IMG/VR virus record: IMGVR_UViG_3300020207_000227
Coordinates: 1-20,139 of that record
Strand: one strand, 5' to 3'
Length of the DNA stretch: 20,139 nucleotides
Source: a virus
Below the pieces are notes generated by a model. It did not search any database, had not been told where the DNA came from, and saw only the letters and a list, made by a program, of their open reading frames with translations. A program made the translations under genes and the position numbers. Positions 4,550-19,949 of this stretch are shown in pieces. Positions within the stretch are counted from its first letter, which is position 1; each line of letters starts with the position of its first letter.

Positions 4550-5020
4550 GTGGCAATCACTAAACTCACAGGCAACTCATTTGGTAACGATGTTAATCTG
4601 ACTAACGTCGCGGTTGCCAATTCGTTTGTACATGGTACTGACAGTTACCAGATGAATCGCTACGTGGCTCATGGTCAAACAACGAATGGTACAGAGACAG
4701 AAATTTATCTGATCCACAGTTCTACTGGTCGTGTTCCAGTGACGGCCAATTCTACTCTTTTCTTTGAGGCTTCGATTGTTGCATGTTCAAATGGAGAAAG
4801 TGCATCATGGCATTTAAAAGGTTGCGCCGATAATCATAACGGTACAACAGACGACGTTGGAGATATTTACGAGATTGCGGTTGCCGCTGATGATTTAAAT
4901 TGGTCGGTTGATATACGAGCTGATGACACAAATGATACACTCAATATATATTGCACTGGAGCAACGAGTAAAACAGTTAACTGGACAGCAGTTGTCAATA
5001 CAATCGAGGTTATTCCCTAA
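4550..5020 (+). CDS. Probable beta-rich virion protein, function unknown
   Basis: Encodes 156 residues from GTG at 4550 (MAITKLTGNSFG), 7 bases after AGGA (4539-4542). The ribosome-binding and start block, positions 4536-4555, matches 538-557 at 19 of 20 bases; the one difference is the first base of the start codon (A there, G here). The protein is rich in T, N, S and V with alternating hydrophobic residues (LFFEASIVACS, LNIYCTGATSKTVNWTAVV), which suggests a compact beta sandwich. It has no membrane segment. The stop TAA shares its last A with the ATG of the next gene (TAATG, 5018-5022). Small structural proteins of this kind lie between fiber genes in marine T4-like phages. I cannot assign a specific role. 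Confidence 0.75.
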   Translation: MAITKLTGNSFGNDVNLTNVAVANSFVHGTDSYQMNRYVAHGQTTNGTETEIYLIHSSTGRVPVTANSTLFFEASIVACSNGESASWHLKGCADNHNGTTDDVGDIYEIAVAADDLNWSVDIRADDTNDTLNIYCTGATSKTVNWTAVVNTIEVIP

Positions 5021-8000
5021 TGGCAAGACGTACACGTAGTTTCCTTTTTGATAATATTTCAAAGCGTCTTGTTCAAAATACGAATAAGACAGCGAAAGAA
5101 ATTAATACTCGTAGGGCAGCGAATACTGTTGCTAATACAGATATTCTGACATCTAAAGAAACTGATACTAAAATTTCAACTACGATCAGTAATACCGGTA
5201 TCAACACGTTATCAGATATTTCTATTGCAAATGTTGTTTCTGATCAGGTATTACAATATAATGCAAATACTGGTAATTGGGAAAACGAAACACTCTCGCT
5301 TGTGAGTAGTGTTGATGGTCTAACCGATACCAATCTTACATCTCTTTCAAATGGTGATTATCTTGTTTATAGCAGTTCTGGTTCTGAGTGGATTAATAGA
5401 AGTTTAGATCTGAGTAGCTATGTCACTGATACGGATATAGCAGATTATTCTAACACAGCTCAAATGAATACTGCGATCGCATCATCAAACACTGCACTCA
5501 AGTCATATGTAGACACTAATTTTTCTAATACCGCACAGATGAATACTGCGATCGCATCTTCAAATACTGCGATGAAGAATTATGTAGACGCTGAAGTTGC
5601 CGGTGTTGTAAACTCTGCTCCATCTACTCTTGACACATTAAACGAATTAGCAGAGGCGTTGGGTGATGATCCCGATTTTGCAACTACAACCGCAACTAAT
5701 ATTGGTACTAAGCTAGCTAAATCTTCTAATCTGTCTGATCTCGCCAATGCAGCGACAGCACGTACTAATTTAGGTTTAGGTACTGCAGCGACAACTGCGT
5801 CAACTGATTATGCCACTTCTGCGCAAGGCACCAAAGCAGATACAGCACATGGTTGGGGTAATCATGCTTCAGCGGGTTATGGCACATCTAATTTTAGTGG
5901 TGCATATGCTGATTTGACTGGTAAGCCATCATTGTTTAGTGGTGCATATGCTGATTTGACTGGTAAGCCTACTATTCCAACCAATAACAATCAGTTGACG
6001 AATGGTGCTGGTTATATTACCACAACTTCTGCTAATAATAGTTTAGTTCAACTAGGGGCTATACAACTTTATAATAACGAAAAAACAACGTATACTGCGG
6101 CACAGGGTTTATTAATATACGATCAAGCTGGTGATAATTGTTTAAACATTTATAATGCTAATTTGAGTAGATGGGTTAAAATTTGGGATGACTCTAACGA
6201 CGGTGCTAGTTCTGGACTTGATGCTGACTTGTTAGATGGACAACATGGCTCATATTATTCGAATTATAACAATTTATCAAATAAGCCTACTATCCCAACC
6301 AATAACAACCAGCTGACGAACGGCGCTGGCTATATTACATCAACAGTTTCTGGCGATATTGATATTGTAGGTGATGTTAAGGCTGCTGGTCAAATTAGAG
6401 CGACTGGATGGTGGAATACTAATTCTTCTGATCGGAGCGGTTATGCTGTAGAAATAGGTTGGTCAGCCGGTGAAGGATATTTGTTGTCATATAGCAGGAC
6501 TGCAGGTGCTTACGGTGCAATGAATTATACGGCCACTAGCCATGATTTCTACAGTGGAAATGTACGCTTAAAAGCTGGTAAGTATATAGATCTAGAAACT
6601 AGTGCAGGAAGTGTACGAGGTTATATACAAGCTACTGACACTAATGATCAACATTTGATTATAGCTACATCTGGTGGTGAGGATATTGCTTTCAAAGATG
6701 GTGGCCTCAGTGGTGATTCTAATCTTATTATTAGAGGCGATGGTAACGTATGGGTAAGAGGTTCTATATTAAACGGTACTATGGCGTATTCTCAGCTAAC
6801 AGGTACGCCGACCATCCCAACCAATAACAATCAGCTGACGAATGGCGCTGGTTATATCACTAATGGTGCGAACTATAATGTTAATAATGCATGGTTAAGA
6901 GAGAATGGTGATAATGCTAATGTAAAGTTGTACGGTAATAGCCGTCAAATGGCATTTAGAACAGACGGCACCAGTGAGTATTCAACGGGTGTAGGCGGTT
7001 ATCCATTTGTTTGGATGTATGGTAGTAATGCCTCCGGTGCAAGAAAAATGTATTTGACAACCGGTGGTAATTTAGGTATTACAGGGACCATGACCACTGG
7101 TGGAAATGTTAATGTTCCTAGCGATACTGGACCTGCAACATCTGGTGCTTGGATAAGAAATACAACAGCATATGGATATATTCAAATAGGTCCTGCAAAT
7201 ACTGGTCATGCTCATATTTACACGGATCGTAGTAATTTTTATTTTAATAAAACCAATATTCAAGCTAATGGTAATGCCATGTGGCATGCCGGTAACGACG
7301 GTTCAGGTTCTGGTCTTGATGCGGATACACTCGATGGCTTGCAATTAAATTCTTCGACAACGAATAATCAAGCAAACGCCGTCGTACGCACACAGGCAAA
7401 TGGCTATATTCATGCAGGTTGGATCAATTCTGTATCAGGATCGTCAGGAACAGCAAACAGATTGACCAGAATTACTGCATCATATGACGCCTACCTACGT
7501 TATTTAACTGTAAAGGATTTTAAAGTACAAATTGGAGAAAGTTACAAAAATGATTTCTCTCGGTCAGTAGATTATACAACTGATTCAAATTATTGGGTAG
7601 GTTCATTCGGAAAAAATGGTTACAATGCTAATCAGACATTCCATGCTGGATCAGGATTTTTTGATATTTGGTCTGGTTCAAATTATCCGTCAGGTACTAG
7701 TCATATTCATGGTTTTAATGCTTTACATTATACTGTTGGTAGCATCTCAGGAAATACTGGCAATGCGTACGGCTGGCAAATGGCAGCTCAATATAATCAA
7801 GATTCTGGGCCTTGGTGGAGAAGATGTAGCGCTGGATCGTTTACAAGCTGGCGTAAAATATGGCACGATTCTAATGACGGTTCTGGTTCTGGACTCGATG
7901 CCGATTTGCTTGACGGTTATCATCTTACTACCACCGATAGAAATAATCAAGCAAATAGAGTTGTTCGTACTCAAGCGAATGGCAGAATTTATGGCGGCCA

Positions 8001-8517
8001 ATTCTATGCAAATGATTGGTTTAGAGCAGAAAGCACTAGCGGATTATATTTCCAATCATACGGCGGTGGTTGGAATATGACCGACACTTCATGGATTCGT
8101 GCATATAACGGTAAAGCTATATATGCTACGAATACTATTGCTACATCTGCTAATATTTGCGCGTACTATTCAGATGAACGTCTGAAGACAATTACAGGAC
8201 ATATAGATAATGCATTAGATAAAGTTTTATCACTTGACGGATTCTATTATGTAGAAAATGAGTTAGCTAAAGAATTAGGCTATAATAATGATAAGCAACA
8301 AGTTGGTGTATCAGCTCAAAAAGTACAAGCAGTATTACCAGAAGCCGTAGAACTTGCACCAGTTGATTACGAAACAGGCGAACATGATGGAATAATAACG
8401 TCAAAATCTGGTGAAAATTATTTAACTGTAGACTATGCTAAAATGGTACCTCTATTAATAGAAGCCATTAAAGAGCAACAGAAACAAATTGAAGAATTAA
8501 AGGAGAAAATAAAATGA
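5020..8517 (+). CDS. Giant tail fiber with knob-like domain and C-terminal S74 self-cleaving chaperone
   Basis: Encodes 1165 residues. Residues 1-140 are an N-terminal region with heptad-like polar sequence. A 25-residue tandem duplication follows (from N145 and N170), then a TLDTLNELAEALGDD segment typical of marine phage fibers. Next come repeated LTGKP and TIPTNNNQLTNGAGYIT units and three copies of a W-x-x-x-N-D-G-x-x-SGLDAD-x-LDG motif at W389, W755 and W948. Residues about 875-948 (YGWQMAAQYN to FTSWRKIW) look like a pyocin-knob domain. The last 115 residues are an S74 peptidase / intramolecular chaperone domain: SDERLK has S1051 and K1056, the Ser-Lys pair of that family, and the end (IEAIKEQQKQIEELKEKIK) is a coiled coil. 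By family knowledge the chaperone trims itself off before S1051 after the trimer has folded. Start ATG overlaps the upstream stop; GAGG (5006-5009) precedes it. Confidence 0.92.
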   Translation: MARRTRSFLFDNISKRLVQNTNKTAKEINTRRAANTVANTDILTSKETDTKISTTISNTGINTLSDISIANVVSDQVLQYNANTGNWENETLSLVSSVDGLTDTNLTSLSNGDYLVYSSSGSEWINRSLDLSSYVTDTDIADYSNTAQMNTAIASSNTALKSYVDTNFSNTAQMNTAIASSNTAMKNYVDAEVAGVVNSAPSTLDTLNELAEALGDDPDFATTTATNIGTKLAKSSNLSDLANAATARTNLGLGTAATTASTDYATSAQGTKADTAHGWGNHASAGYGTSNFSGAYADLTGKPSLFSGAYADLTGKPTIPTNNNQLTNGAGYITTTSANNSLVQLGAIQLYNNEKTTYTAAQGLLIYDQAGDNCLNIYNANLSRWVKIWDDSNDGASSGLDADLLDGQHGSYYSNYNNLSNKPTIPTNNNQLTNGAGYITSTVSGDIDIVGDVKAAGQIRATGWWNTNSSDRSGYAVEIGWSAGEGYLLSYSRTAGAYGAMNYTATSHDFYSGNVRLKAGKYIDLETSAGSVRGYIQATDTNDQHLIIATSGGEDIAFKDGGLSGDSNLIIRGDGNVWVRGSILNGTMAYSQLTGTPTIPTNNNQLTNGAGYITNGANYNVNNAWLRENGDNANVKLYGNSRQMAFRTDGTSEYSTGVGGYPFVWMYGSNASGARKMYLTTGGNLGITGTMTTGGNVNVPSDTGPATSGAWIRNTTAYGYIQIGPANTGHAHIYTDRSNFYFNKTNIQANGNAMWHAGNDGSGSGLDADTLDGLQLNSSTTNNQANAVVRTQANGYIHAGWINSVSGSSGTANRLTRITASYDAYLRYLTVKDFKVQIGESYKNDFSRSVDYTTDSNYWVGSFGKNGYNANQTFHAGSGFFDIWSGSNYPSGTSHIHGFNALHYTVGSISGNTGNAYGWQMAAQYNQDSGPWWRRCSAGSFTSWRKIWHDSNDGSGSGLDADLLDGYHLTTTDRNNQANRVVRTQANGRIYGGQFYANDWFRAESTSGLYFQSYGGGWNMTDTSWIRAYNGKAIYATNTIATSANICAYYSDERLKTITGHIDNALDKVLSLDGFYYVENELAKELGYNNDKQQVGVSAQKVQAVLPEAVELAPVDYETGEHDGIITSKSGENYLTVDYAKMVPLLIEAIKEQQKQIEELKEKIK
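5452..5583 (+). repeat. 75-base tandem duplication inside the second fiber gene
   Basis: Positions 5452-5526 and the block from 5527 to about 5583 encode near-identical 25-residue units beginning NTAQMNTAIASSNTA. The bases differ mainly at third codon positions, with identical stretches such as ATGAATACTGCGATCGCATC. In-frame duplication lengthens the fiber shaft without breaking the gene. Confidence 0.85.
5893..5969 (+). repeat. 42-base tandem repeat inside the second fiber gene
   Basis: A 35-base sequence occurs identically at 5893-5927 and 5935-5969, a shift of 42 bases (14 codons, encoding FSGAYADLTGKP plus two residues). Perfect identity suggests a recent duplication, probably by slippage or recombination. 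It keeps the reading frame. Confidence 0.9.
5968..6861 (+). repeat. Three dispersed 54-base repeats encoding PTIPTNNNQLTNGAGYIT
   Basis: Copies at 5968-6021, 6286-6339 and 6808-6861 encode the same 18 residues with a few synonymous changes. The intervening DNA differs in length and sequence. Such islands of identity can be crossover points for swapping fiber modules (inference). The peptide motif NNQLTNGAGYIT is a common element in phage fibers. Confidence 0.9.
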
Positions 8518-9974: not shown

Positions 9975-11078
9975 ATGAGTGTTAAATTCTATGTGCTTTG
10001 TAGTTCTAATCTAAAGGCTACAAAAAGACACGAGCAGACCATTCCAAAAGAAGATATTCACTTCGTCTTTAATAGTACTGATGAAGCATACGTCAATTCC
10101 GCTATAGACTATGCAACAAGTGCTAATATCGCATATTCAGTTACAACATCTGACGGCACACCAGCTACAGGTAAAAACAGCGTTTTAGACATATTCACAT
10201 CATCAGACAATGATTATATGGTGTTAGTAGATGGTGACGATTTTATTACACCGCATGGTGTATGGACATATAAACAATTAGCGCAATCAAATACATGTCC
10301 CGATGTTGTCGCGATCGAATATCAATATGGAATATATGCAGATTGGGGATATTTAAATCCACATCACTATAATCCTCGAGTAGGCTCAAGCGATCAGTTT
10401 GACCATGATCAAATACATGGATTTCCTTGTCGTTGTTTTATTTTAAAACAAGATTTTTGGCAGAAGGCAATTAATGGCAACCTTATTCCAACGCCTGAAG
10501 GAAATGATTTTGCTGTACAATTATCTCAAGCTCACACAAAATGGGCGCAGTATGCATATCGTTATATCAATAATTGGGAATCACATTGTCGTGTAGTATT
10601 TTATTCTAAAGCCGCGGCAGCACATCGATTTGATAATGCTCATAAGATTGGTGAAGATACACTGCAATATTTTATTCTCAAACATGAGCACGTACAAGGT
10701 AATCTATCAATGAAGATTTTAACTGATCGTTATCCAACTTACGTATACGATACTCGAGTTGAAGGTATATGTGCTGACGCTCAAAATAGAGTTGGTAATA
10801 GAGGATGGGAAGAATGGCTGCGAAAATTAGGAAATAAATATGAACAATATGACAATGAAGGAAAGATGCACGATTATACCCTGCCAAAAGTAGAGGTACA
10901 ATGGAATGGTCGGGACGATTTAGATTCGTATGATATTGTTTGGCCAGAAAACTATCGACCAGACGTTATGAATTTAGTAAACTTTCCTGGTCCTCAGCAT
11001 ATTTGGTGGGATGCGCAAAGTGGTATTCCAGGCGAAGGGGATTTATTTAGAGTTGGACCAGAAGGTGGCTGGCAATAG
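9975..11078 (+). CDS. Probable GT-A fold glycosyltransferase
   Basis: Encodes 367 residues starting one base after the chaperone stop. The start (SVKFYVLCSS) is a first beta strand with no signal peptide. An acidic motif at residues 86-89 (VLVDGDDFITP) fits the DxD metal- and nucleotide-sugar-binding site of GT-A enzymes. A GED at 226-228 (KIGEDTLQYF) resembles the acidic catalytic motif of GT2-type enzymes. The C-terminal 120 residues are Trp- and Gly-rich (WEEWLRKLGN, GPQHIWWDAQSGIPGEG) and not recognised. The protein is predicted to be cytoplasmic. Placement within the fiber cassette suggests it sugars a virion protein or supplies a host-interaction function (inference). It could instead be a non-catalytic GT-like fold. 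Family assignment rests on the two motifs and on secondary structure pattern. Confidence 0.65.
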   Translation: MSVKFYVLCSSNLKATKRHEQTIPKEDIHFVFNSTDEAYVNSAIDYATSANIAYSVTTSDGTPATGKNSVLDIFTSSDNDYMVLVDGDDFITPHGVWTYKQLAQSNTCPDVVAIEYQYGIYADWGYLNPHHYNPRVGSSDQFDHDQIHGFPCRCFILKQDFWQKAINGNLIPTPEGNDFAVQLSQAHTKWAQYAYRYINNWESHCRVVFYSKAAAAHRFDNAHKIGEDTLQYFILKHEHVQGNLSMKILTDRYPTYVYDTRVEGICADAQNRVGNRGWEEWLRKLGNKYEQYDNEGKMHDYTLPKVEVQWNGRDDLDSYDIVWPENYRPDVMNLVNFPGPQHIWWDAQSGIPGEGDLFRVGPEGGWQ

Positions 11079-11677: not shown

Positions 11678-11788
11678 ATGGTTTTGGGTAACGAAGTCTT
11701 TGACCGTTACCTCGTTTCCGGCCAAAGAGATCTAACATACAAGGGCAGGTTTATTCTGCCCTTTGTTATGCGGGTGATTTATGGCTAG
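11678..11788 (+). CDS. Possible micro-ORF of 36 codons filling the gap before the repeat-protein gene
   Basis: ATG at 11678 opens a frame of 36 codons (MVLGNEVFDRYLVSGQRDLT, then YKGRFILPFVMRVIYG) ending at TAG 11786-11788, overlapping the next start by 8 bases. It spans the whole gap between two genes. Against it: no clear Shine-Dalgarno stands before the ATG, and the codon endings (CTC, GTT, TCC, GGC, CGG) differ from the A/T-ending neighbours. The same bases form at least two hairpins, which gives another explanation for the sequence constraint. Listed with low confidence. Confidence 0.2.
   Translation: MVLGNEVFDRYLVSGQRDLTYKGRFILPFVMRVIYG
11687..11711 (+). other. Hairpin in the intergenic gap
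   Basis: GGTAACG (11687-11693) pairs with CGTTACC (11705-11711), a perfect 7-base stem. The 11-base loop AAGTCTTTGAC can fold further through GTC/GAC. It lacks a following T-run and so is not a terminator by itself. It may be an RNA-stability or processing element, or structure in a micro-ORF. Confidence 0.5.
11741..11768 (+). terminator. Possible intrinsic terminator before the repeat-protein gene
   Basis: AAGGGCAG (11741-11748) and CTGCCCTT (11756-11763) form a perfect 8-base, GC-containing stem with a 7-base loop GTTTATT, followed by TGTTAT. The downstream T-tract is short, so termination would be partial. It lies only 17 bases before the start of the next gene, so it could instead attenuate expression or end the transcript that starts at the 11095 promoter. 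Confidence 0.5.
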
Positions 11789-14700
11789 AATAGTTTATGT
11801 AGTTGATGGAACACCACCTGGCAGTAATAATTACGTAGATATCGCCTATGTAATTAAATACGAAGAAGTCACTGCTGGTGTTCTTGGTATTACTAATAGT
11901 GCTGTATCTGGCTCTAGTGCTAGAACAGTATTCAGTGTTAATACAAATCTCGTAGCTGACGATTGCTCAGTTACCACATCTCCAGAAAGACAACTACCCG
12001 GAACTGGTACCGTTGTCTGTGCCGGTACTGCAGTTACTGGTATTGCAGAACGTGTAATTACAAGTAGCGTATCTCTTACTTCTACAGATGGTTCTACATC
12101 TGGTGTCGGCGAAAGAACAATCATCGCAACGGGTACGGGTGATCTCGTATCTGGCAATTCCGTACTAGGAGATGCAACACGTAAGGTTGTTACATCTGCC
12201 GGTCTTGTAGCAGTTAATAGCTCTGTAAGTGGTGTCGCTGAACGTACAATAGTATCGACATCTACTTCTCTTGTATCTGCCAATTCATTAATATCCTCTA
12301 CACTCGAACGTGAGCTTACTAGCACAGGCTCGCTTGTTGCTGTCGGATCTGTAGTTTCAGGTACTGCTGAAAGAGAAATTACAACATCTATTTCTCTTGC
12401 TGTTTCAAATGGTAGTACTGCAGGTGTTGGCGAACGAACAGTTGTATCTACGTCGGCAAATCTTACCACATCTGCAACTGTAACAGGCGCAGGTACAAGA
12501 ACAATTATTGCTACAGGTACAGGAGATCTTGTATCTGGTAATTCAGTTCTTGGTGATGCTACACGTAAAGTTGTTACATCAGCAAATGTAGTTGCTGTTA
12601 ATTCTAGCACTAGTGGTATTGCTGAAAGAACGATCGTATCTACATCTACATCTCTCATAGCGATTAATTCTAGTACAGCTGGTGTTGCTGAAAGAATTGT
12701 TAAGAGTACATCTACAACTCTACCACAAAATAATAGTAGTGTATCAGGTATTAGTGAACGTCAAGTTCCGGGCACAGACTCGCTTGTCGCTGTTGGCGCT
12801 AGTACGAGTGGTAGCGGTATTCGAACTGTTGTTTCTACATCGGCAGGTTTAGTCACAACAGCTTCAACTGCAGGTATTGCAGAACGAACTATTGTATCGA
12901 CATCGACGAGTTTAGTGACGTCAGCATCCGTGACAGGTGTAGGTGAAAGAACTATAACATCTATATCCGGATTTGGTGATCTTGTTGCTGGTAATTCTAC
13001 CGTCGGTACTGGTGAACGAGAAGTTGTCGGAACTGATTCGCTCGTAGCTGTTGGTGCTAGCACAAACGGCAGCGGTATTAGAACAGTCGTATCAACATCA
13101 ACTGGATTAGTAACTTCAGCTTCGACTAGCGGTATTGCTGAGCGAACAATAGTATCGACATCAACAAATCTAACTACTTCGGCAACTACTACTGGTATTG
13201 CCGAAAGAATTATACCTGGTAGTGGCGATACTACTACAACTATACCGAGTGTCAGCGGTGTAGGTATAAGACGAATTACATCGATTACAGGATTTGGTGA
13301 TCTCGTAGCGGATGATGCAGTAGTTGGTGATGGTACACGTAGAATTCCTGCTGTATCTGCAAATCTTATTACAGCAGCATCGACTTCTGGTTCTGGTATT
13401 CGAACTGTTGTATCTGAATCTACATCACTTGTATCGACAGTTTCATCTGTATCTAGTTTCCCTGAACGTATCATTACAAGTACATTTACTGATTTACCAC
13501 AATCAGTTCCTGGCTCAATTAGTGGTATTGCTGAACGTGAACTCGTAGTATTTGATGGTCTCGTCGCTTATGGTTCTTCAACTGCAGGTTCTGGCATACG
13601 AACAGTAGAACTGACTACTGGTGTATTGCCACAAAATGGTTCGACGAGCGGTGTTGGTCTTAGAACTATTGTATCGACTAGCACAGATGTTGTTGCAACA
13701 ACTGCATCGGTCCAAAGTCCAGTACCAGTCGAACGTATTATTACTAGCACATTTACTGATTTACCACAATCTGTACCAGGTTCAATATCAGGTATTGCAG
13801 AGCGCGAGCTTGTAGTTAATGATAATGTAACTCCATATGGAGGTTCAACTGCGGGTAGTGGTATACGAAGTGTTGTTCTTGTCAATGGTGTGCATCCGAG
13901 AAATGCGGCTGGTAGTGGTGTTGGTAAACGAACTGTCGTTTCAACTAGTACTGATGTCGTCGCTACAACTTCTACAGTACAAAGCCCGATTCCTGTCGAA
14001 CGTATCATTACAAGTACATTTACTGACTTGCCGCAGTCGATTCCAGGTTCTACATCTGGTATTGGTGAACGTGAGCTAGTTGTACTTGATGGCCTCGTTG
14101 CATACGGTGCTTCTACTACTGGTTCTGGTAAGCGTGAAGTCAAATCTACTAACGGTGATCTTGTTGCTGTTGGTGCAAGAACAGACGGTGTAGTTGAACG
14201 CGAGATTACAACTGTTAGTGGCTTCGGTGATCTTGTTGCTGGTAATTCTGTACTTGGTGATGGTACGAGGCGTATTATTGCCACCGGAACTATTGGGTTT
14301 GGTGAAACATCAGAATCAGTCACATATTCTGTGCAAAACAATGGATCTGGTGAATATGTAATTGACGGGACTGGTGGCAATCCTACATTATCTTTCTATA
14401 GAGGATCTACTTATACCATTAATGTAAGTGCCCCCGGTCATCCATTCTGGATCAAAACTACGCAGACGACTGGGTCAGCTGACTCATATAACGATGGTGT
14501 AACAAATAATGGAACCGATAATGGTACTATAACCTTCGTTGTTCCTGATAACGCGCCCAGCACATTATATTATGTCTGTCAATATCATGCTTCTATGCAA
14601 GGCTCTATTTCAGTATCTCATGCTATTGAAGACGAATTACAGAATTCTGAGGCTGCAGGTACAGGTAAGCGTACAGTTATATCTAAATCTGCAAATCTAC

Positions 14701-15218
14701 AAGGTACACCAAGTGTACTCGGTGTCGTCGAAAGGACAATTACACAAACTGCCGATAATATACCGCAAGCTAGCGGTTCAAGAGTTGATGGTAGATTTGA
14801 GCGTATAATTACTTCAAAGGCCGCTGCGCTTCCACAAAGTGTACCAGGTTCTACAAGTGGTGTTGGTACAAGAACCATTACTATCACTACAAATATTAGT
14901 CAGACGTCTTCTGCATCTGGTTCTGGTACTAGAACTGTTAAACTGATAACTGGTGTTGTACGTGATCTTGATAATAGTGCAAGAATAAATGGCATTGGTC
15001 AAACGTTTAATAGTGAACGAATTGCTGTTGATATCAATGTTAAAATTAAGCCAGAAGTAAATATAATAAGCATGGTTGTCGAACAACCCAATATCGAAAT
15101 AAAACTATACGAAGAGACAGATATTGTAGCTGTCGCTAAAGATCCACCAGATATTACAGTTAAAATAAAACCAGACATATTCGGTGAAGCTGGCAGGATC
15201 TATACTAAGGTTGCATAA
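11781..15218 (+). CDS. Giant repeat protein with embedded cupredoxin (type 1 copper) domain
   Basis: Encodes 1145 residues. After a short N-terminal region (MARIVYVVDGTPPGSNNYVD), residues 47-1073 consist of about 42 copies of a 21-22 residue repeat of the form (E/T/I)R-T-I-V-S-T-S-x-x-L-V-x-x-x-S-x-x-S-G-x, interrupted at about residues 845-950. The interruption is a cupredoxin-like domain: a central H887 (GHPFWIKT) and the cluster C933-x2-H936-x2-M939 (YYVCQYHASMQG) supply the four usual ligands of a type 1 copper site. The C-terminal 70 residues (VDINVKIKPEVNI, DITVKIKPDIFGEAG) are a separate beta region. There is no signal peptide or membrane segment. Position before gene 13, where T4 has wac, and the repeat architecture suggest a long virion fiber or whisker-like protein (inference). 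Translation start is preceded by GGGTGA (11772-11777). Confidence 0.85.
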   Translation: MARIVYVVDGTPPGSNNYVDIAYVIKYEEVTAGVLGITNSAVSGSSARTVFSVNTNLVADDCSVTTSPERQLPGTGTVVCAGTAVTGIAERVITSSVSLTSTDGSTSGVGERTIIATGTGDLVSGNSVLGDATRKVVTSAGLVAVNSSVSGVAERTIVSTSTSLVSANSLISSTLERELTSTGSLVAVGSVVSGTAEREITTSISLAVSNGSTAGVGERTVVSTSANLTTSATVTGAGTRTIIATGTGDLVSGNSVLGDATRKVVTSANVVAVNSSTSGIAERTIVSTSTSLIAINSSTAGVAERIVKSTSTTLPQNNSSVSGISERQVPGTDSLVAVGASTSGSGIRTVVSTSAGLVTTASTAGIAERTIVSTSTSLVTSASVTGVGERTITSISGFGDLVAGNSTVGTGEREVVGTDSLVAVGASTNGSGIRTVVSTSTGLVTSASTSGIAERTIVSTSTNLTTSATTTGIAERIIPGSGDTTTTIPSVSGVGIRRITSITGFGDLVADDAVVGDGTRRIPAVSANLITAASTSGSGIRTVVSESTSLVSTVSSVSSFPERIITSTFTDLPQSVPGSISGIAERELVVFDGLVAYGSSTAGSGIRTVELTTGVLPQNGSTSGVGLRTIVSTSTDVVATTASVQSPVPVERIITSTFTDLPQSVPGSISGIAERELVVNDNVTPYGGSTAGSGIRSVVLVNGVHPRNAAGSGVGKRTVVSTSTDVVATTSTVQSPIPVERIITSTFTDLPQSIPGSTSGIGERELVVLDGLVAYGASTTGSGKREVKSTNGDLVAVGARTDGVVEREITTVSGFGDLVAGNSVLGDGTRRIIATGTIGFGETSESVTYSVQNNGSGEYVIDGTGGNPTLSFYRGSTYTINVSAPGHPFWIKTTQTTGSADSYNDGVTNNGTDNGTITFVVPDNAPSTLYYVCQYHASMQGSISVSHAIEDELQNSEAAGTGKRTVISKSANLQGTPSVLGVVERTITQTADNIPQASGSRVDGRFERIITSKAAALPQSVPGSTSGVGTRTITITTNISQTSSASGSGTRTVKLITGVVRDLDNSARINGIGQTFNSERIAVDINVKIKPEVNIISMVVEQPNIEIKLYEETDIVAVAKDPPDITVKIKPDIFGEAGRIYTKVA
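13464..14129 (+). repeat. Higher-order repeat with an exact 267-base (89-residue) period
   Basis: ERIITSTFTDLPQS starts at 13464, 13731 and 13998, exactly 267 bases apart. Copies 1 and 2 match over the whole 89 residues, each ending in V-Q-S-P-(V/I)-P-V; copy 3 matches over about the first 44 residues and then diverges. Each superunit spans four basic units. This points to array growth by unequal recombination of multi-unit blocks. Confidence 0.9.
14310..14630 (+). other. Cupredoxin-like domain within the repeat protein
   Basis: Approximate limits of the non-repeat insert. It starts near SVTYSVQNNGSGEYVIDG, contains LSFYRGSTYTINVSAPGHPF with H887 (14439-14441), and ends near CQYHASMQGSISVSH with C933 (14577-14579), H936 (14586-14588) and M939 (14595-14597). 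Order and spacing of His, Cys, His and Met follow type 1 copper proteins of the plastocyanin/pseudoazurin kind. Copper binding is inferred, not shown. Confidence 0.8.
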
Positions 15219-15246: not shown

Positions 15247-15990
15247 ATGGCAGTTCCAACAACGAGAGATGAATTTAAGGAGTATTGCCTCCGATCTCTT
15301 GGCAAGCCAGTTATAGAAATAAACGTTGACGATACACAGGTCGATGATCGTATCGACCAAGCACTGCGTTTTTACTGGGACTACCACTTTGACGGTACAG
15401 AAAAAATATATTATAAACATGAGATCGATGCTAATACTGTATCAAACAAGTATATCGATTTGCCTGAAAATATTATAGGTGCTGTAAAGCTTTTTCCGAT
15501 TGGTGATCCAAATACATCGTCTGGTGATATCTTTAATATCCGGTATCAAATCGCGCTAAACGATTTGTACACGCTGACAAATGTTGCATTGATTGATTAC
15601 TACATGACAATGGAACATCTTGCATTAGTACAAGAACTACTTGTCGGCAAGCCACAGATTAGATATAATCGTCATCGTAATCGATTACACATTGACGAAA
15701 CTGCAGGCGATTTAGAAGTAGGTCAATATTTACTCGTCGAAGCTTATGAACTTGTAGATCCAGCAACATATACGGATGTATGGGCGGATAGATGGCTACA
15801 ATATTATACTTCGCAATTAATCAAACGACAATGGGGCACAAACCTTACAAAATTCGAAGGACTTCAATTACCTGGTGGTGTGACGTTTAACGGTAGACAA
15901 ATCTACGACGAAGCGCAGGCAGAAATCACTAAACTAGAAGAAGAGATGATCAGCAACTACAGTCTGCCTGTAATGGATATGATTGGTTAG
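15247..15990 (+). CDS. 13: Neck protein, T4 gp13 homologue (head completion)
   Basis: Encodes 247 residues from ATG 15247, 7 bases after GGAG. The start, MAVPTTRDEFKEYCLRSLG followed by KPVIEINVDD and RIDQALRFYWDYHFDGTE, is the conserved N-terminus of T4-type gp13, and the C-terminal half (WADRWLQYYTSQLIKRQWG, KFEGLQLPGGVTFNG) is equally typical. T4 gp13 is 309 residues; this is a shorter version, as is usual in marine relatives. gp13 and gp14 form the neck that seals the filled head and joins it to the tail. The next gene is the gp14 homologue, as in T4. The gene is probably transcribed from the late octamer at 15214-15221. Confidence 0.92.
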   Translation: MAVPTTRDEFKEYCLRSLGKPVIEINVDDTQVDDRIDQALRFYWDYHFDGTEKIYYKHEIDANTVSNKYIDLPENIIGAVKLFPIGDPNTSSGDIFNIRYQIALNDLYTLTNVALIDYYMTMEHLALVQELLVGKPQIRYNRHRNRLHIDETAGDLEVGQYLLVEAYELVDPATYTDVWADRWLQYYTSQLIKRQWGTNLTKFEGLQLPGGVTFNGRQIYDEAQAEITKLEEEMISNYSLPVMDMIG

Positions 15991-16026
15991 CACTAGCTAA
16001 TTATACTGTAAAACTAGGAATTGTAC

Positions 16027-16761
16027 ATGGCTACAAACCCATATTTTGATAATTTTTATAACTCGCCTGAACAGAATCTTATCGAAGATCTGATTATCGA
16101 GTCTATTAAAATATATGGACACGATGTTTGGTTCTGTCCGCGTACAGTCGTGGCGCGCGATAATGTCTTTAATTCTGATGCCCTTTCACAATATAATGAT
16201 TCATATCAAATTGAGATGTACATCAAAAATGTTGAAGGATTTGAAGGAGAAGGTGATTTCCTATCGCGATTTAATATCCAAATACGAGATCAGATTACAT
16301 TTACAGTTGCCAATAAGAGATATAATGAGGTCATCGGTGATTACGAAGATTCACCGCGGCCGAAAGAAGGTGATATCATTTACTTCCCTCTTACTGAAAA
16401 AATATATCAAATCAAGTTTGCAGAACACGAAGCTCCCGTCTTCTATCAGATGGGTGCGTTGCAGTGTTATGATTTGATCTGTGAACAGTTCGAATATAGC
16501 GGCGAAGATTTAAATACTGGTGTTGATGCAATTGATTCACTCGAAGCGAAATATACTGTCGTAGCAGATGCTGATGATGGTGTTACATATGATGCAAACA
16601 ATAATGTAATCATAGATGCAAATACTGGTAGGCCTCTGGGTGTAGTAACTGATTGGCAACCAGATGACGTGTTTAATGATGGCGGTACATTCGAAACTTT
16701 GGCTGATGGATTCATCGACTTCTCAGAAGCAGATCCATTTAGCGACGACGGGCGATACTAA
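16027..16761 (+). CDS. 14: Neck protein, T4 gp14 homologue
   Basis: Encodes 244 residues (MATNPYFDNFYNSPEQNLIE). The ATG at 16027 is chosen over an in-frame TTG at 16021 because AGGA (16016-16019) lies 7 bases before the ATG and only 1 before the TTG. Conserved T4-type features include NLIEDLIIESIKIYGHDVWF near the start, a DRDQITF-like strand (QIRDQITFTVANKRYNEV), RPKEGDIIYFPLTEKIYQI, and the DPFSDDGRY end. T4 gp14 is 256 residues, so the length fits. It works with gp13 in the head-tail neck. An acidic stretch (TVVADADDGVTYDANNNV) near residue 180 precedes the tail of the protein. The stop overlaps the gene 15 start as TAATG (16759-16763). Confidence 0.9.
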   Translation: MATNPYFDNFYNSPEQNLIEDLIIESIKIYGHDVWFCPRTVVARDNVFNSDALSQYNDSYQIEMYIKNVEGFEGEGDFLSRFNIQIRDQITFTVANKRYNEVIGDYEDSPRPKEGDIIYFPLTEKIYQIKFAEHEAPVFYQMGALQCYDLICEQFEYSGEDLNTGVDAIDSLEAKYTVVADADDGVTYDANNNVIIDANTGRPLGVVTDWQPDDVFNDGGTFETLADGFIDFSEADPFSDDGRY

Positions 16762-17873
16762 TGTTTGGAAGAACTTTTTACCACGATACATTAAGAAAGT
16801 ATGTCATACTTTTTGGCACACTCTTTAATGATATTTGGATCAATCGCCCTGATAATTCAGGTAATGTTAAGCAGTCACTAAAGGTACCACTTTCGTATGG
16901 ACCAAGAGAAAAATTCTTGGCTCGTATTGATGGTATCGATAGTAACAGAGATCCACAAGAAAATCCATTCTCTATCGTTTTGCCGAGAATGGGATTCGAG
17001 ATTACAGGATTCAATTATGCTCCAGAAAGAAAACTGCCTACACGTAATAGCTTCGTTACTACTGTTACCGATGACAATACTAAAAAGAAACATGTCTACA
17101 ATCCGGTCCCGTATGACATTAATTTTTCACTTTCTATTTTCGTAAAGAATACAACAGACGGCACACGAATCATCGAACAGATTTTACCATTCTTTACACC
17201 TGAGTGGACATCGACTATTCAACTCGTCGACGATGCACCTATCGATATTAAACTCGATATCCCATTAGTTTTAACTGCAGTCAATCAAGACGATGTATAT
17301 GAAGGCTCATTCGAAGAGAGAAGAGCACTGATATGGCAGTTAGATTTTACAATGAAAGGTGTGTTCTTCGGACCTGTTTATAAGCAAGAGATAATCAATC
17401 TAGCTAATACACAAATTTTCGATGCTACATTATACGATGATATTACTCTCGCGCCAGATGGATTAGATCCTGATCTTGATGTTGCAGCTAGAATCGTAAA
17501 TCAACCGGGATTATTAGCTAATAATACACCGACAATATATACTAGTTTAAATAGTGAACAAGCAACAGCTGTCGCAACAATTACAGATGGCGCTGTGACT
17601 GCTATATCTCTTACTAATGATGGTGTCGGATATAGCGCAGCAACTGTTACTATTTCGGGCGGAGGCGGAGCAAACGCAACAGCAACAGCTGTTATTGATA
17701 ATTCAGATTCTGTATCTGAAATACTTATTACTAGCGGCGGCACAGGTTATACGAGCACACCTACAGTGACTATTTCGGCTCCTGATCTTGTATCACTTGA
17801 TGCCGATCAAATTGCAGCTAACTCAGACTTCGGACTTGCTGTTACTATAGATGATCCATGGCCGGATCAGTGA
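16761..17873 (+). CDS. 15: Tail sheath terminator, T4 gp15 homologue with a C-terminal extension
   Basis: Encodes 370 residues. The first 255 carry T4-type gp15 features: MFGRTFYHDTLRKYVILFGT, IWINRPDNSGN, VPLSYGPREKFLARIDG, LPRMGFEITGFNYAPERKL, and PYDINFSLSIFVKNTTDG, followed by IIEQILPFFTPEWT. gp15 forms a hexamer that caps the tail tube and sheath and joins them to the neck. T4 gp15 has 272 residues; here about 100 extra residues follow. They include two glycine-rich beta repeats (ISLTNDGVGYSAATVTISGG and ILITSGGTGYTSTPTVTIS), a repeat type I associate with decorations on marine phage structural proteins. The extension is in frame and its base composition is not obviously different. Start is in TAATG with the gp14 stop, so coupled translation is likely. 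Confidence 0.92.
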   Translation: MFGRTFYHDTLRKYVILFGTLFNDIWINRPDNSGNVKQSLKVPLSYGPREKFLARIDGIDSNRDPQENPFSIVLPRMGFEITGFNYAPERKLPTRNSFVTTVTDDNTKKKHVYNPVPYDINFSLSIFVKNTTDGTRIIEQILPFFTPEWTSTIQLVDDAPIDIKLDIPLVLTAVNQDDVYEGSFEERRALIWQLDFTMKGVFFGPVYKQEIINLANTQIFDATLYDDITLAPDGLDPDLDVAARIVNQPGLLANNTPTIYTSLNSEQATAVATITDGAVTAISLTNDGVGYSAATVTISGGGGANATATAVIDNSDSVSEILITSGGTGYTSTPTVTISAPDLVSLDADQIAANSDFGLAVTIDDPWPDQ

Positions 17874-17884
17874 AGGATAAAGAC

Positions 17885-18307
17885 ATGAAAGATAATGCAC
17901 AACTCGATGACATTTTAGATGTCAAATCAACAACGATTATTGAAATCGATGATGATAAGCCATTACCTACTACATATCGTCCATCTCTACATGAAACTGA
18001 TAAAGAAGTAGAGAACGATACCAAATATGTCCGACAAAATTTCTATGATCTGATTGAGAAAGGACATAGCGCTATCGACGAATTACTTGCTGTAGCAGAT
18101 CAATCACAACATCCACGAGCATACGAAGTACTCGCTACGATGATTAAGACGATGGGCGATATGAACAATGATCTATTAGGCATGCATGAGAAAAAACAAA
18201 AGCTCACCGGGGAGAAACCAGAAGACAAGAAGGAAACAGTCAACAACAATCTTTTTGTGGGCTCAACAAGTGAGCTTCTAAAGTTGATGAATAAAGATGG
18301 CGACTGA
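17885..18307 (+). CDS. 16: Terminase small subunit, T4 gp16 homologue
   Basis: Encodes 140 residues, MKDNAQLDDILDVKSTTII onward. A longer in-frame version from ATG 17858 (MAGSVKDKD...) is rejected because GAAGGA (17872-17877) sits exactly 7 bases before the 17885 ATG, and the earlier start has no ribosome binding site. Family features are a charged N-terminal third, a helical centre (DTKYVRQNFYDLIEKGHSAI, DELLAVADQS, RAYEVLATMIKTM) and the conserved end VGSTSELLKLMN, which resembles the C-terminus of T4 gp16 (164 residues). gp16 binds DNA ends and stimulates the gp17 ATPase and nuclease. The gene overlaps the following gp17 start by 11 bases. Confidence 0.88.
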   Translation: MKDNAQLDDILDVKSTTIIEIDDDKPLPTTYRPSLHETDKEVENDTKYVRQNFYDLIEKGHSAIDELLAVADQSQHPRAYEVLATMIKTMGDMNNDLLGMHEKKQKLTGEKPEDKKETVNNNLFVGSTSELLKLMNKDGD

Positions 18308-19949
18308 TATTCAGGATATTATTGACTACCGTTCGTATCTCGGTAATGTCAATCTTAAAAGAAAAGGCGTAACGATCGAGTGGACCGAAGAGATGGTCCA
18401 AGAATTCGTGAAGTGTGCTAAAGATCCAATATATTTTGCTGAGAAGTATATACAGATCGTACACGTTGACCACGGACTCATACCGATTACATGCTATGAC
18501 TATCAAAAAGAAATCATCGAAAAAACCACAAATAACCGACGAGTATGTGTGGTTACAAGCCGCCAAGCGGGTAAGACAACGACTGCTGTCTGTCTTATAC
18601 TTCATTACATTCTTTTTAACGATCATAAGCTTGTCGCTCTTCTCGCAAATAAAGGAGACGCTGCAAGAGAAATATTGGATCGTATCAAGACGGCTTATGA
18701 AGCTCTTCCTAAGTGGTTGCAACAAGGTGTCATCGAATGGAACAAAGGATCCGTAGAATTTGAAAACGGATCAAAGATCATTGCAGCAGCCACTTCATCA
18801 TCCGCAATACGAGGTAAATCAGTATCTTTTCTGTATATCGACGAGACAGCTTTCGTAGAAAACTGGGACGAATTTTTTGCTTCGGTCTTTCCTACAATTT
18901 CTTCTGGTACGTCAACCAAAATTCTACTCACATCGACACCGAACGGTCTAAATCACTTCTATAAGACGTGCGAAGGAGCGAAGGCGGGTAAAAACGGTTA
19001 TGAGTTTGTTCAAGTCATGTGGACTGATGTACCAGGTCGTGATCAAAAATGGTACGATGAAACACTCGCAGCAATGGATTTTGATACTGAGAAGTTTGCT
19101 CAGGAAATGGAATGCGAATTCCTCGGCTCGTCAGGCACATTGATTGCTGGTTGGAAGCTCAAGCAACTTGTATATAAAGAGGCCGTAAAAGAAGTAGGCG
19201 GCATTGTAGTATACGAAGAACCAAAGACAGAAGGCAACTATGTAATAGTAGTCGATGTGAGCAGAGGCAAAGGTTTAGACTACTCAGCTTTCCAAGTCAT
19301 CGACATCTCACAGATGCCATACGTACAGGTTGGTGCATATCGTAATAATATGATCACACCAGTCGATTATGCTGCCGCTGTACACGCTGCCGCAAAGTAT
19401 TTTAACGATGCTAATATACTCGTTGAAGTCAATGATATAGGAGAACAAGTAGCTGGTATCATTTTTGAAGAATATGAATATGAAAATATGTTGCTTACTG
19501 AAAATAACGGGCGAGAAGGTAAGCGCCTATTATCTGGTGTAGCAGGATTTAATGGTAAGGCAGATAAAGGTATACGTACTACAAAGTCTGTCAAGTCAAT
19601 TGGTTGTTCTATGATCAAACTGTTGGTTGAACAGAATCAATTGATCATTAATGATTTCGAAACTATTAGAGAGATGTCGACTTTTAGTCAGAAGGGAACA
19701 TCATACGAAGCAGAACCAGGTAATCATGACGATTTGATGATGTGTTTGGTACTCTTCGGTTGGCTTTCTAATCAGAGATTTTTCAAAGAACTCACCGATA
19801 TAAATACGGTTATCAACCTCAAAGAAATGAATGAGGAAAAAGTGTTCAGTGAATTGGTACCATTTGGAATGATAGATGACGGTCAGAACGAATTCGAGGA
19901 CCCTAAACCGGTCACCGCTAGGGGTAATGACTATAGTTGGTTACTTTGA
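18297..19949 (+). CDS. 17: Terminase large subunit (DNA-packaging ATPase and nuclease), T4 gp17 homologue
   Basis: Encodes 550 residues (T4 gp17: 610). The ATPase half shows Walker A SRQAGKTT at residues 88-95 and Walker B LYIDE at 179-183, with D182 and the catalytic E183, plus the coupling motif SSTSTKILLTSTPNG-like region after it. The nuclease half shows the three acidic positions expected from T4 (D401, E458, D542): D320 in VIVVDVSRGKG, E377 in ILVEVNDIG, and the HDD cluster at 477-479 (GNHDDLMM). gp17 docks on the portal, pumps DNA into the head with ATP, and cuts the concatemer. The start overlaps gene 16 and lacks a strong Shine-Dalgarno, so translation is probably coupled. All key residues are intact. 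Confidence 0.98.
   Translation: MATDIQDIIDYRSYLGNVNLKRKGVTIEWTEEMVQEFVKCAKDPIYFAEKYIQIVHVDHGLIPITCYDYQKEIIEKTTNNRRVCVVTSRQAGKTTTAVCLILHYILFNDHKLVALLANKGDAAREILDRIKTAYEALPKWLQQGVIEWNKGSVEFENGSKIIAAATSSSAIRGKSVSFLYIDETAFVENWDEFFASVFPTISSGTSTKILLTSTPNGLNHFYKTCEGAKAGKNGYEFVQVMWTDVPGRDQKWYDETLAAMDFDTEKFAQEMECEFLGSSGTLIAGWKLKQLVYKEAVKEVGGIVVYEEPKTEGNYVIVVDVSRGKGLDYSAFQVIDISQMPYVQVGAYRNNMITPVDYAAAVHAAAKYFNDANILVEVNDIGEQVAGIIFEEYEYENMLLTENNGREGKRLLSGVAGFNGKADKGIRTTKSVKSIGCSMIKLLVEQNQLIINDFETIREMSTFSQKGTSYEAEPGNHDDLMMCLVLFGWLSNQRFFKELTDINTVINLKEMNEEKVFSELVPFGMIDDGQNEFEDPKPVTARGNDYSWLL
19799..19806 (+). promoter_or_regulatory. TATAAATA inside the 3' end of gene 17
   Basis: A second perfect TATAAATA lies within the gene 17 coding sequence, 163 bases before the one at 19962. 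It encodes part of DINTVIN and may occur by chance in AT-rich DNA, or act as an extra late start for gene 18. Confidence 0.3.

Follow-up and report, generated by a model that had tools for sequence, protein, structure and literature searches.

The known functions of cupredoxin-type copper proteins are to carry electrons and to form part of oxidases and reductases. Rusticyanin and AcoP, both cupredoxins of Acidithiobacillus, carry electrons as soluble proteins and have a longer ligand loop than that described here, amicyanin has a C-x2-H-x2-M ligand spacing, and azurin works with OprC. Phages for their part carry Ig-like decoration domains, small and promiscuous beta-sandwiches whose Ig fold has no metal site. 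In phages, PMC3037559 and PMC2984593 refer to plastocyanin as the petE gene, the Hoc protein of T4 is treated in PMC10385173, and the nearest published idea that we met is that of iron on tail fibres (PMC11705849). An earlier description of a cupredoxin domain in a phage virion was not found in the open-access literature that was searched.

The domain described here lies within a long repeat protein of a marine tailed phage, and it recurs in many viruses of aquatic habitats. We consider it probable, at about 0.68, that it represents a promiscuous cupredoxin module of virion proteins, which has an intact type 1 ligand set, would be loaded with metal outside the cell and would act as a stabilised surface or adhesion domain.

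The repeat protein and its neighbourhood

The window (the whole stretch of DNA that was analysed), a 20,139-base virus record, has T4-type neck and packaging genes at its right end. Pfam and PHROG matches identified a head-tail adaptor (15247-15990), a neck protein (16021-16761), the sheath stabiliser gp15 (16761-17873) and the small and large terminases (17858-19949). The closest relatives of the large terminase (18297-19949) were those of the Sinorhizobium phages phiN3 and phiM12, with 57-58% identity, and this similarity suggests an alphaproteobacterial host. The domain had also been considered as a sign that the phage is a cyanophage, an idea that was discarded given these terminase matches. 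At its C-terminus the gp15 protein had additional sequence (residues about 255-340) with motifs of TSTPTVTIS type, matching modules of many baseplate and virion structural PHROGs. Two other proteins of the window were characterised by eye. One, of 367 aa (9975-11078), has a VDGDDF motif and resembles a GT-A type glycosyltransferase; it matched no PHROG at E 0.1, and in Pfam it matched only a DUF, weakly (E 0.07). The other (5020-8517) is fibre-like, with a C-terminus (SDERLKTITGHIDNALDKVLSLDGFYY) resembling the S74 self-cleaving chaperone domain.

The domain is carried by a protein of 1145 aa, encoded in a single open frame on the + strand (11781-15218). Segmentation of the translation gave 36 units of a 21-24-residue repeat of type ERTIVSTSTSLVTSASTSGIA (residues 47-828, 11919-14264, + strand), followed by an interrupted unit of 134 aa, about 22 + 112, that houses the cupredoxin domain (residues 829-962, 14265-14666, + strand). 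Four to five more units follow on the same strand (14667-14987, end approximate), and after these final repeats the protein ends in a different C-terminus. The array thus comprises about 42 units, with the domain inside one of them, and the expectation that the same repeats occur on both flanks was borne out. The full 1145 aa matched no Pfam family at E 1. Since the T4-type neck and packaging genes adjoin it on its 3′ side, and the ORFs on its 5′ side are fibre-like by eye, the protein is probably a tail or fibre component; from these neighbouring genes we infer that it is located on the virion. When the domain was modelled together with its flanking repeats, pLDDT reached only 36.9. The G+C content of the domain (0.396) did not differ appreciably from that of the window (0.397), and recent import was not indicated.

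Predicted fold and ligand set

The cupredoxin-fold domain, as supported by AlphaFold2, Foldseek, VIA-align and a family HMM, spans residues 846-946 (14316-14618, + strand). The original prediction had placed it at residues of about 845-950; a domain was present there, though the domain proper is slightly narrower, and the HMM match covered 14319-14618 (iE 1.2e-44, with the window copy among the source sequences of the HMM). All four ligands that had been proposed matched the translation of 11781-15218 in position and numbering. H887, the first His ligand (14439-14441), lies inside GHPFW, while C933 (14577-14579), H936, the second His (14586-14588), and M939, the axial Met (14595-14597), lie inside YYVCQYHASMQG, all on the + strand and with the spacing C-x2-H-x2-M.

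For modelling, the domain was aligned with 68 IMG/VR relatives, and AlphaFold2 run on these 69 aligned copies returned a model with pLDDT 92.5 and pTM 0.86. When the model was compared with the PDB using Foldseek, AcoP (7z3f) was the top match (E 5.8e-7) and rusticyanin the next (3.0e-6). There were 103 matches at E <= 0.001, and among the best 50 of these 103 all titles were copper-protein names except that of 3cvd, which we take to be a plastocyanin. With VIA-align, the three-domain nitrite reductase 2dv6 scored Z 11.0 (rmsd 2.7 angstrom over 95 residues) and rusticyanin 2cal Z 10.6 (rmsd 2.4 angstrom over 95 residues). Copper proteins thus head the PDB structure comparisons by both methods, among the matches listed. 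A fold other than that of cupredoxins would have told against the prediction, and the AlphaFold2 model instead matched cupredoxins in Foldseek and VIA-align.

In model numbering, H46 precedes strand 48-51, C92 ends strand 87-92 and M98 lies just before strand 99-105. The second His and the Met are on the loop leading into strand 99-105, with the Cys at the start of that loop. The ligand topology of the model appears to be the type 1 arrangement and agrees with convergence of the four side chains. The Greek-key beta-sandwich (predicted), the order of the ligands and their retention in homologues are all as in the cupredoxin superfamily, and the proposal of a cupredoxin with a type 1 ligand set is upheld as far as the predicted fold and the homologues indicate. 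A Foldseek search against predicted viral structures added 62 matches at E <= 0.001 (best 5.3e-13); these came from cyanophages and other viruses and comprised tail fibre and baseplate proteins as well as unnamed ones.

The evidence from sequence is less strong than that from the predicted fold but agrees with it. Links to copper proteins emerged with the profile and with the model, while single-sequence searches were weak. The window domain alone matched no Pfam family at E 0.01, including Copper-bind (PF00127), and nothing in NCBIfam at E 0.01. The best single-sequence phmmer match in the PDB was Glr2806, at E 0.004 but without any stretch passing individually. The profile found seven PDB sequences at E 1: a copper nitrite reductase at a whole-sequence E of 4.9e-4 and another at 0.053, auracyanin, azurin and plastocyanin at 0.3 to 0.8, and two ribosomal proteins at 0.6 to 0.7. 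The Pfam family most often matched by the 69 aligned copies was not Copper-bind (6 copies at E <= 0.1, best 0.023) but PF25489 (At5g54830-like), which matched 27 of them with a best E of 2.4e-4. A cellular relative (L104) matched PF25489 at 7.8e-5 with 23.1 bits, under the family cut-off of 27 bits.

Five whole phage records were also scanned with PF00127, whose curated cut-off is 21.2 bits. Structural copies were matched in P-SSM2 (a tail-spike copy, 1.8e-4), S-SZBM1 (1.2e-3) and S-SCSM2R (0.02), scoring 13.3 to 19.8 bits, so that none of the copies scanned reached the cut-off. At E 0.1 no structural copy was matched in S-SSM5 or S-CREM2, although gp9 of S-SSM5 has the domain. The amicyanin model TIGR02657 matched the ligand loop of the S-SCSM2R copy over 31 residues (E 2.9e-4), with a score of 21.2 against a curated 110.2. 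Alignment of the domain alignment with one cyanophage PetE using hhalign gave a probability of 2.9% (E 0.016), and the Cys, His and Met were nonetheless paired. We therefore regard the domain as a cupredoxin by its predicted fold that lies outside the plastocyanin/azurin sequence family as Pfam defines it, since all virion-type copies scanned fell under the PF00127 cut-off.

Conservation of the ligands was assessed across 420 loci, which gave 512 HMM hits. After 22 hits with at least 20 gaps were removed, the remaining 490 represented 247 distinct copies, those of the window and of cellular records included. The complete His-Cys-His-Met set was present in 229/247, so the conservation in homologues anticipated by the original prediction was found. 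Individually, the first His was retained in 234 of the 247, the Cys in 231, the second His in 232 and the Met in 244. This conservation, the cupredoxin model and the occurrence of the family in hundreds of virus records together argue that the site is more than chance.

Intact sets were found in 65/69 distinct copies of the first scan's set, in 52/53 from bacterial and archaeal contigs, and in 49/53, 51/51, 68/68 and 33/45 from the other four scans, a single sequence being able to fall in several sources. The sets with 49/53 and 33/45 came from site-less queries and are enriched in deviants, and several of the other scans used GHPF or HPF patterns and are enriched in intact copies. The viral scans covered the best 80 of 210, 163, 406, at least 595 and 292 relatives, respectively. 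More than one copy was held by 61 ORFs (duplicates included), and in all four ORFs that paired a deviant copy with another, the other was intact.

All three strong ligands (His, Cys, His) were gone in 12/247 copies. Among the 13 copies that had lost the first His, the Cys was left in one, the second His in none and the Met in 12. Nine of 18 other columns conserved at >= 85% were nevertheless kept in all 13, including the Ile that follows HPF, a Tyr preceding the ligand loop and the Gly that follows the Met. Two of the 18 were less well kept in these copies, a Gly (p 0.03) and a Pro (p 0.0075), and both flank the first His. Such a pattern would be expected of three strong ligands that bind a common metal and are lost jointly once that metal has become dispensable. 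A quick tree of 170 of the 247 rows, thinned at 85% identity, required three changes at the first His, seven at the Cys and five at the second His. The joint-loss counts need caution, as related rows are not independent and the loss of the first His amounts to about three events; a sign test over independent pairs was not significant and cannot reach significance.

These data bear on whether the fold has been retained merely as a beta-sandwich spacer, with ligands that are relics or structural residues and bind no metal in nature. Copies without the three strong ligands (the 12 above) do persist in long phage ORFs, the placement of the domain is promiscuous in the manner of Ig-like domains, and the cytoplasm in which phage proteins fold contains very little free copper. 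Retention of all four ligands in the great majority of copies (229/247) argues the other way, and a relic should decay residue by residue, whereas the His, Cys and His tend to vanish together, albeit in few events. We consider such a spacer unlikely. The fold and the conservation of the ligands suggest rather that the site has been maintained in most copies to bind a metal, which from the ligand set would be copper.

Distribution, protein contexts and possible roles

A tblastn search with the window domain matched 278 of 50,697 phage records (211 Synechococcus, 44 Cyanophage, 17 Prochlorococcus, 5 Marine and 1 Actinomycetia). With the copy from S-SSM5 gp9 as query, 349 phage records were matched (264 Synechococcus, 54 Cyanophage, 23 Prochlorococcus, 6 Marine, 1 Pelagibacter and 1 Actinomycetia), and 31 of the 40 matches listed were annotated as gp9 or baseplate wedge tail fibre connector. 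Nearly all records matched in either search were those of cyanophages. The C-terminal end of gp9 in S-SSM5 is formed by the domain. The gp9 annotations among the matches listed mention no domain of cupredoxin type. The family HMM found no copy in the 49.9 kb of S-CREM2 that was searched, nor was PF00127 matched in the whole record, and some cyanophages may therefore lack the domain.

The domain is a widespread module of baseplate and fibre proteins of other phages, some copies of which are site-less, and neither feature was part of the original prediction. Its carriers numbered 436 ORFs, same-contig repeats included, of which 276 were distinct after the domain had been masked. The remaining sequence fell into 38 clusters (blastp E 1e-8; ORFs with <50 unmasked residues excluded), 20 of them viral only, 17 cellular only and one mixed, a number that is approximate because truncated ORFs and low-complexity filtering may split clusters. 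There are thus about 20 viral protein contexts without detected mutual similarity. They include PHROGs of baseplate wedge and virion structural kind, collagen-like fibres (L292, L295) and a TPTASIT-type stalk (L015). Repeat proteins of the same type as that of the window carried the domain at residues 847-948 (L002, identical to the window across the domain), at 586-686 (L283) or in two copies (L006 to L009).

A protein that carries the domain has been detected in virus particles. SSZBM1_206 of phage S-SZBM1, in which the His, Cys, His and Met are all present, has 498 aa and was represented by 9 peptides (24.9% coverage) in CsCl-purified S-SZBM1 particles, as given in Table 1 of PMC9146016. 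An intact-ligand protein is therefore present in the virions of at least one phage.

In GTDB contigs, 44 of the 46 pattern matches yielded cellular relatives. By record title the carriers were Acidobacteria, OCS116 and PS1 alphaproteobacteria, Myxococcales and Bacteroidetes, among others, and some of these copies may reside in prophages. The quick tree implied six undirected switches between cells and viruses. Two cupredoxin-like domains in tandem occur in proteins of about 420-450 aa from fourteen contigs (L083, L086, L089, L090, L093 to L101 and L105), most of which are titled OCS116, PS1 or Rhodobiaceae. The sole two-domain protein scanned, that of L090, matched no Pfam family at E 0.001. 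Two weaker variant copies with a longer insert were seen in SSSM5_096, a neighbour protein in S-SSM5 (L126:9516-9713, iE 0.012, and L126:10017-10352, iE 1.4e-4), and this variant resembles by eye the first of the two domains in proteins like that of L090.

A type 1 ligand set is typical of electron carriers, and the site could accordingly be redox-active, transferring electrons or handling reactive oxygen on the surface of the virion or of the host. Among nine cellular relatives scanned, one had secreted repeats (Lipoprotein_15) and one DUF7282 repeats, which might fit such a role; a third had a subtilase domain. Pfam and PHROG searches recognised no redox partner in the window, however, and the domain is anchored in a large protein, unlike the leader-bearing true PetE of cyanophages. 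A redox function thus appears very unlikely.

The presence of the domain in the baseplate tail-fibre connector and in fibre proteins invites a sharper form of the adhesion role, one that overlaps with our own reading, in which a copper-loaded domain docks on a copper receptor of the host as a counterpart of the iron Trojan-horse idea. For an Alteromonas phage, iron-binding tail fibres interpreted in this way have been proposed (PMC11705849), and PMC6907878, which has azurin and OprC among its terms, ties a Pseudomonas type VI secretion system to copper acquisition. The contexts of the domain are very diverse, extending beyond fibre tips to repeat arrays and large baseplate proteins, and this tells against a dedicated receptor ligand; we regard metal-dependent docking as distinctly unlikely.

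The reading that we prefer, a metal-stabilised surface or adhesion module, would operate as follows. Residues 846-946 would form a knob, probably exposed, within one repeat unit of a fibre-like protein, and this domain would fold metal-free in the host cytoplasm. Given the scarcity of free copper there, loading would follow lysis, when the domain could take up copper from outside. The bound metal would then lock the ligand loop, and the stabilised knob could act at the host envelope as a rigid surface or adhesion module. We infer copper, loading after lysis, exposure on the fibre and a role in adhesion or stability, while the predicted fold, the ligand conservation, the spread over dissimilar protein contexts and the joint loss of ligands in some copies were computed. 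Aquatic tailed phages may use the domain in fibre, baseplate and other virion proteins as other phages use Ig-like decoration.

If virion proteins of abundant marine phages do bear a conserved type 1 site, the fold would have a novel use there, and phage tails would be connected to trace-metal chemistry. On a much broader view, a large fraction of aquatic tailed phages, T4-like cyanophages foremost, would have several genuine type 1 copper centres on the tail of each virion and would use the copper to recognise or breach the host envelope as a copper Trojan horse; natural waters would then contain, in these phages jointly, a pool of strong copper ligands that has gone unrecognised. This is speculative, and we think it unlikely. 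Annotation would also gain, as the gp9 entries among the matches listed do not name the domain and one copy is mislabelled PetE.

Comparison with PetE, amicyanin, rusticyanin and decoration domains

The mislabelled copy is a gene of S-SCSM2R (PQ898602.1, 170926-171432; L423:2800-3306), which encodes a cupredoxin module behind an N-terminus that is fibre-like by eye, with no leader. Its annotation could be taken to mean that a captured auxiliary plastocyanin gene has been fused to a structural protein. The true petE match of S-SCSM2R lies at 79-321 of the same record, however, and S-SSM5 and P-SSM2 likewise have a separate PetE alongside the virion-type domain. Cyanophage PetE shares the type 1 ligand set but differs in being encoded by a separate small gene, in its leader peptide (by eye), in its C-x2-H-x4-M spacing and in its strong PF00127 matches (E 4.2e-19 to 5.8e-21). 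The virion-type domain has C-x2-H-x2-M and falls under the PF00127 cut-off, and the window copy, embedded in 1145 aa, is not a stand-alone protein with a leader. Capture of petE is thus highly improbable as the origin of the domain. The C-x2-H-x2-M spacing is shared with amicyanin, although the TIGR02657 match was far under the curated score.

Rusticyanin and AcoP, the closest Foldseek structures to the domain model, are not parts of virions. The aligned range of rusticyanin 2cal ends at 1155 (155 if its numbering is offset by 1000), opposite model residue 105. With the ligand residue numbers that we assume for rusticyanin, the axial Met of the model would fall in the same register, provided that the last strand aligns without gaps.

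Among phage protein families, phrog_677 (cyanophage gp9, baseplate wedge tail fiber protein connector) contains the domain at positions 302-410 of 412, with 89.8 bits and E 4.9e-25. Against the whole window protein the match extended over positions 63-410 but scored only 41.3 bits. As the whole-protein score is lower than that of the domain alone, nothing beyond the domain is clearly shared, and the window protein does not belong to phrog_677 as a whole. The Ig-like decoration domains of phages, such as Hoc of T4, are likewise small beta-sandwiches that are promiscuous in virion proteins, and the 20 viral-only clusters show the same placement of the cupredoxin domain across dissimilar virion proteins.
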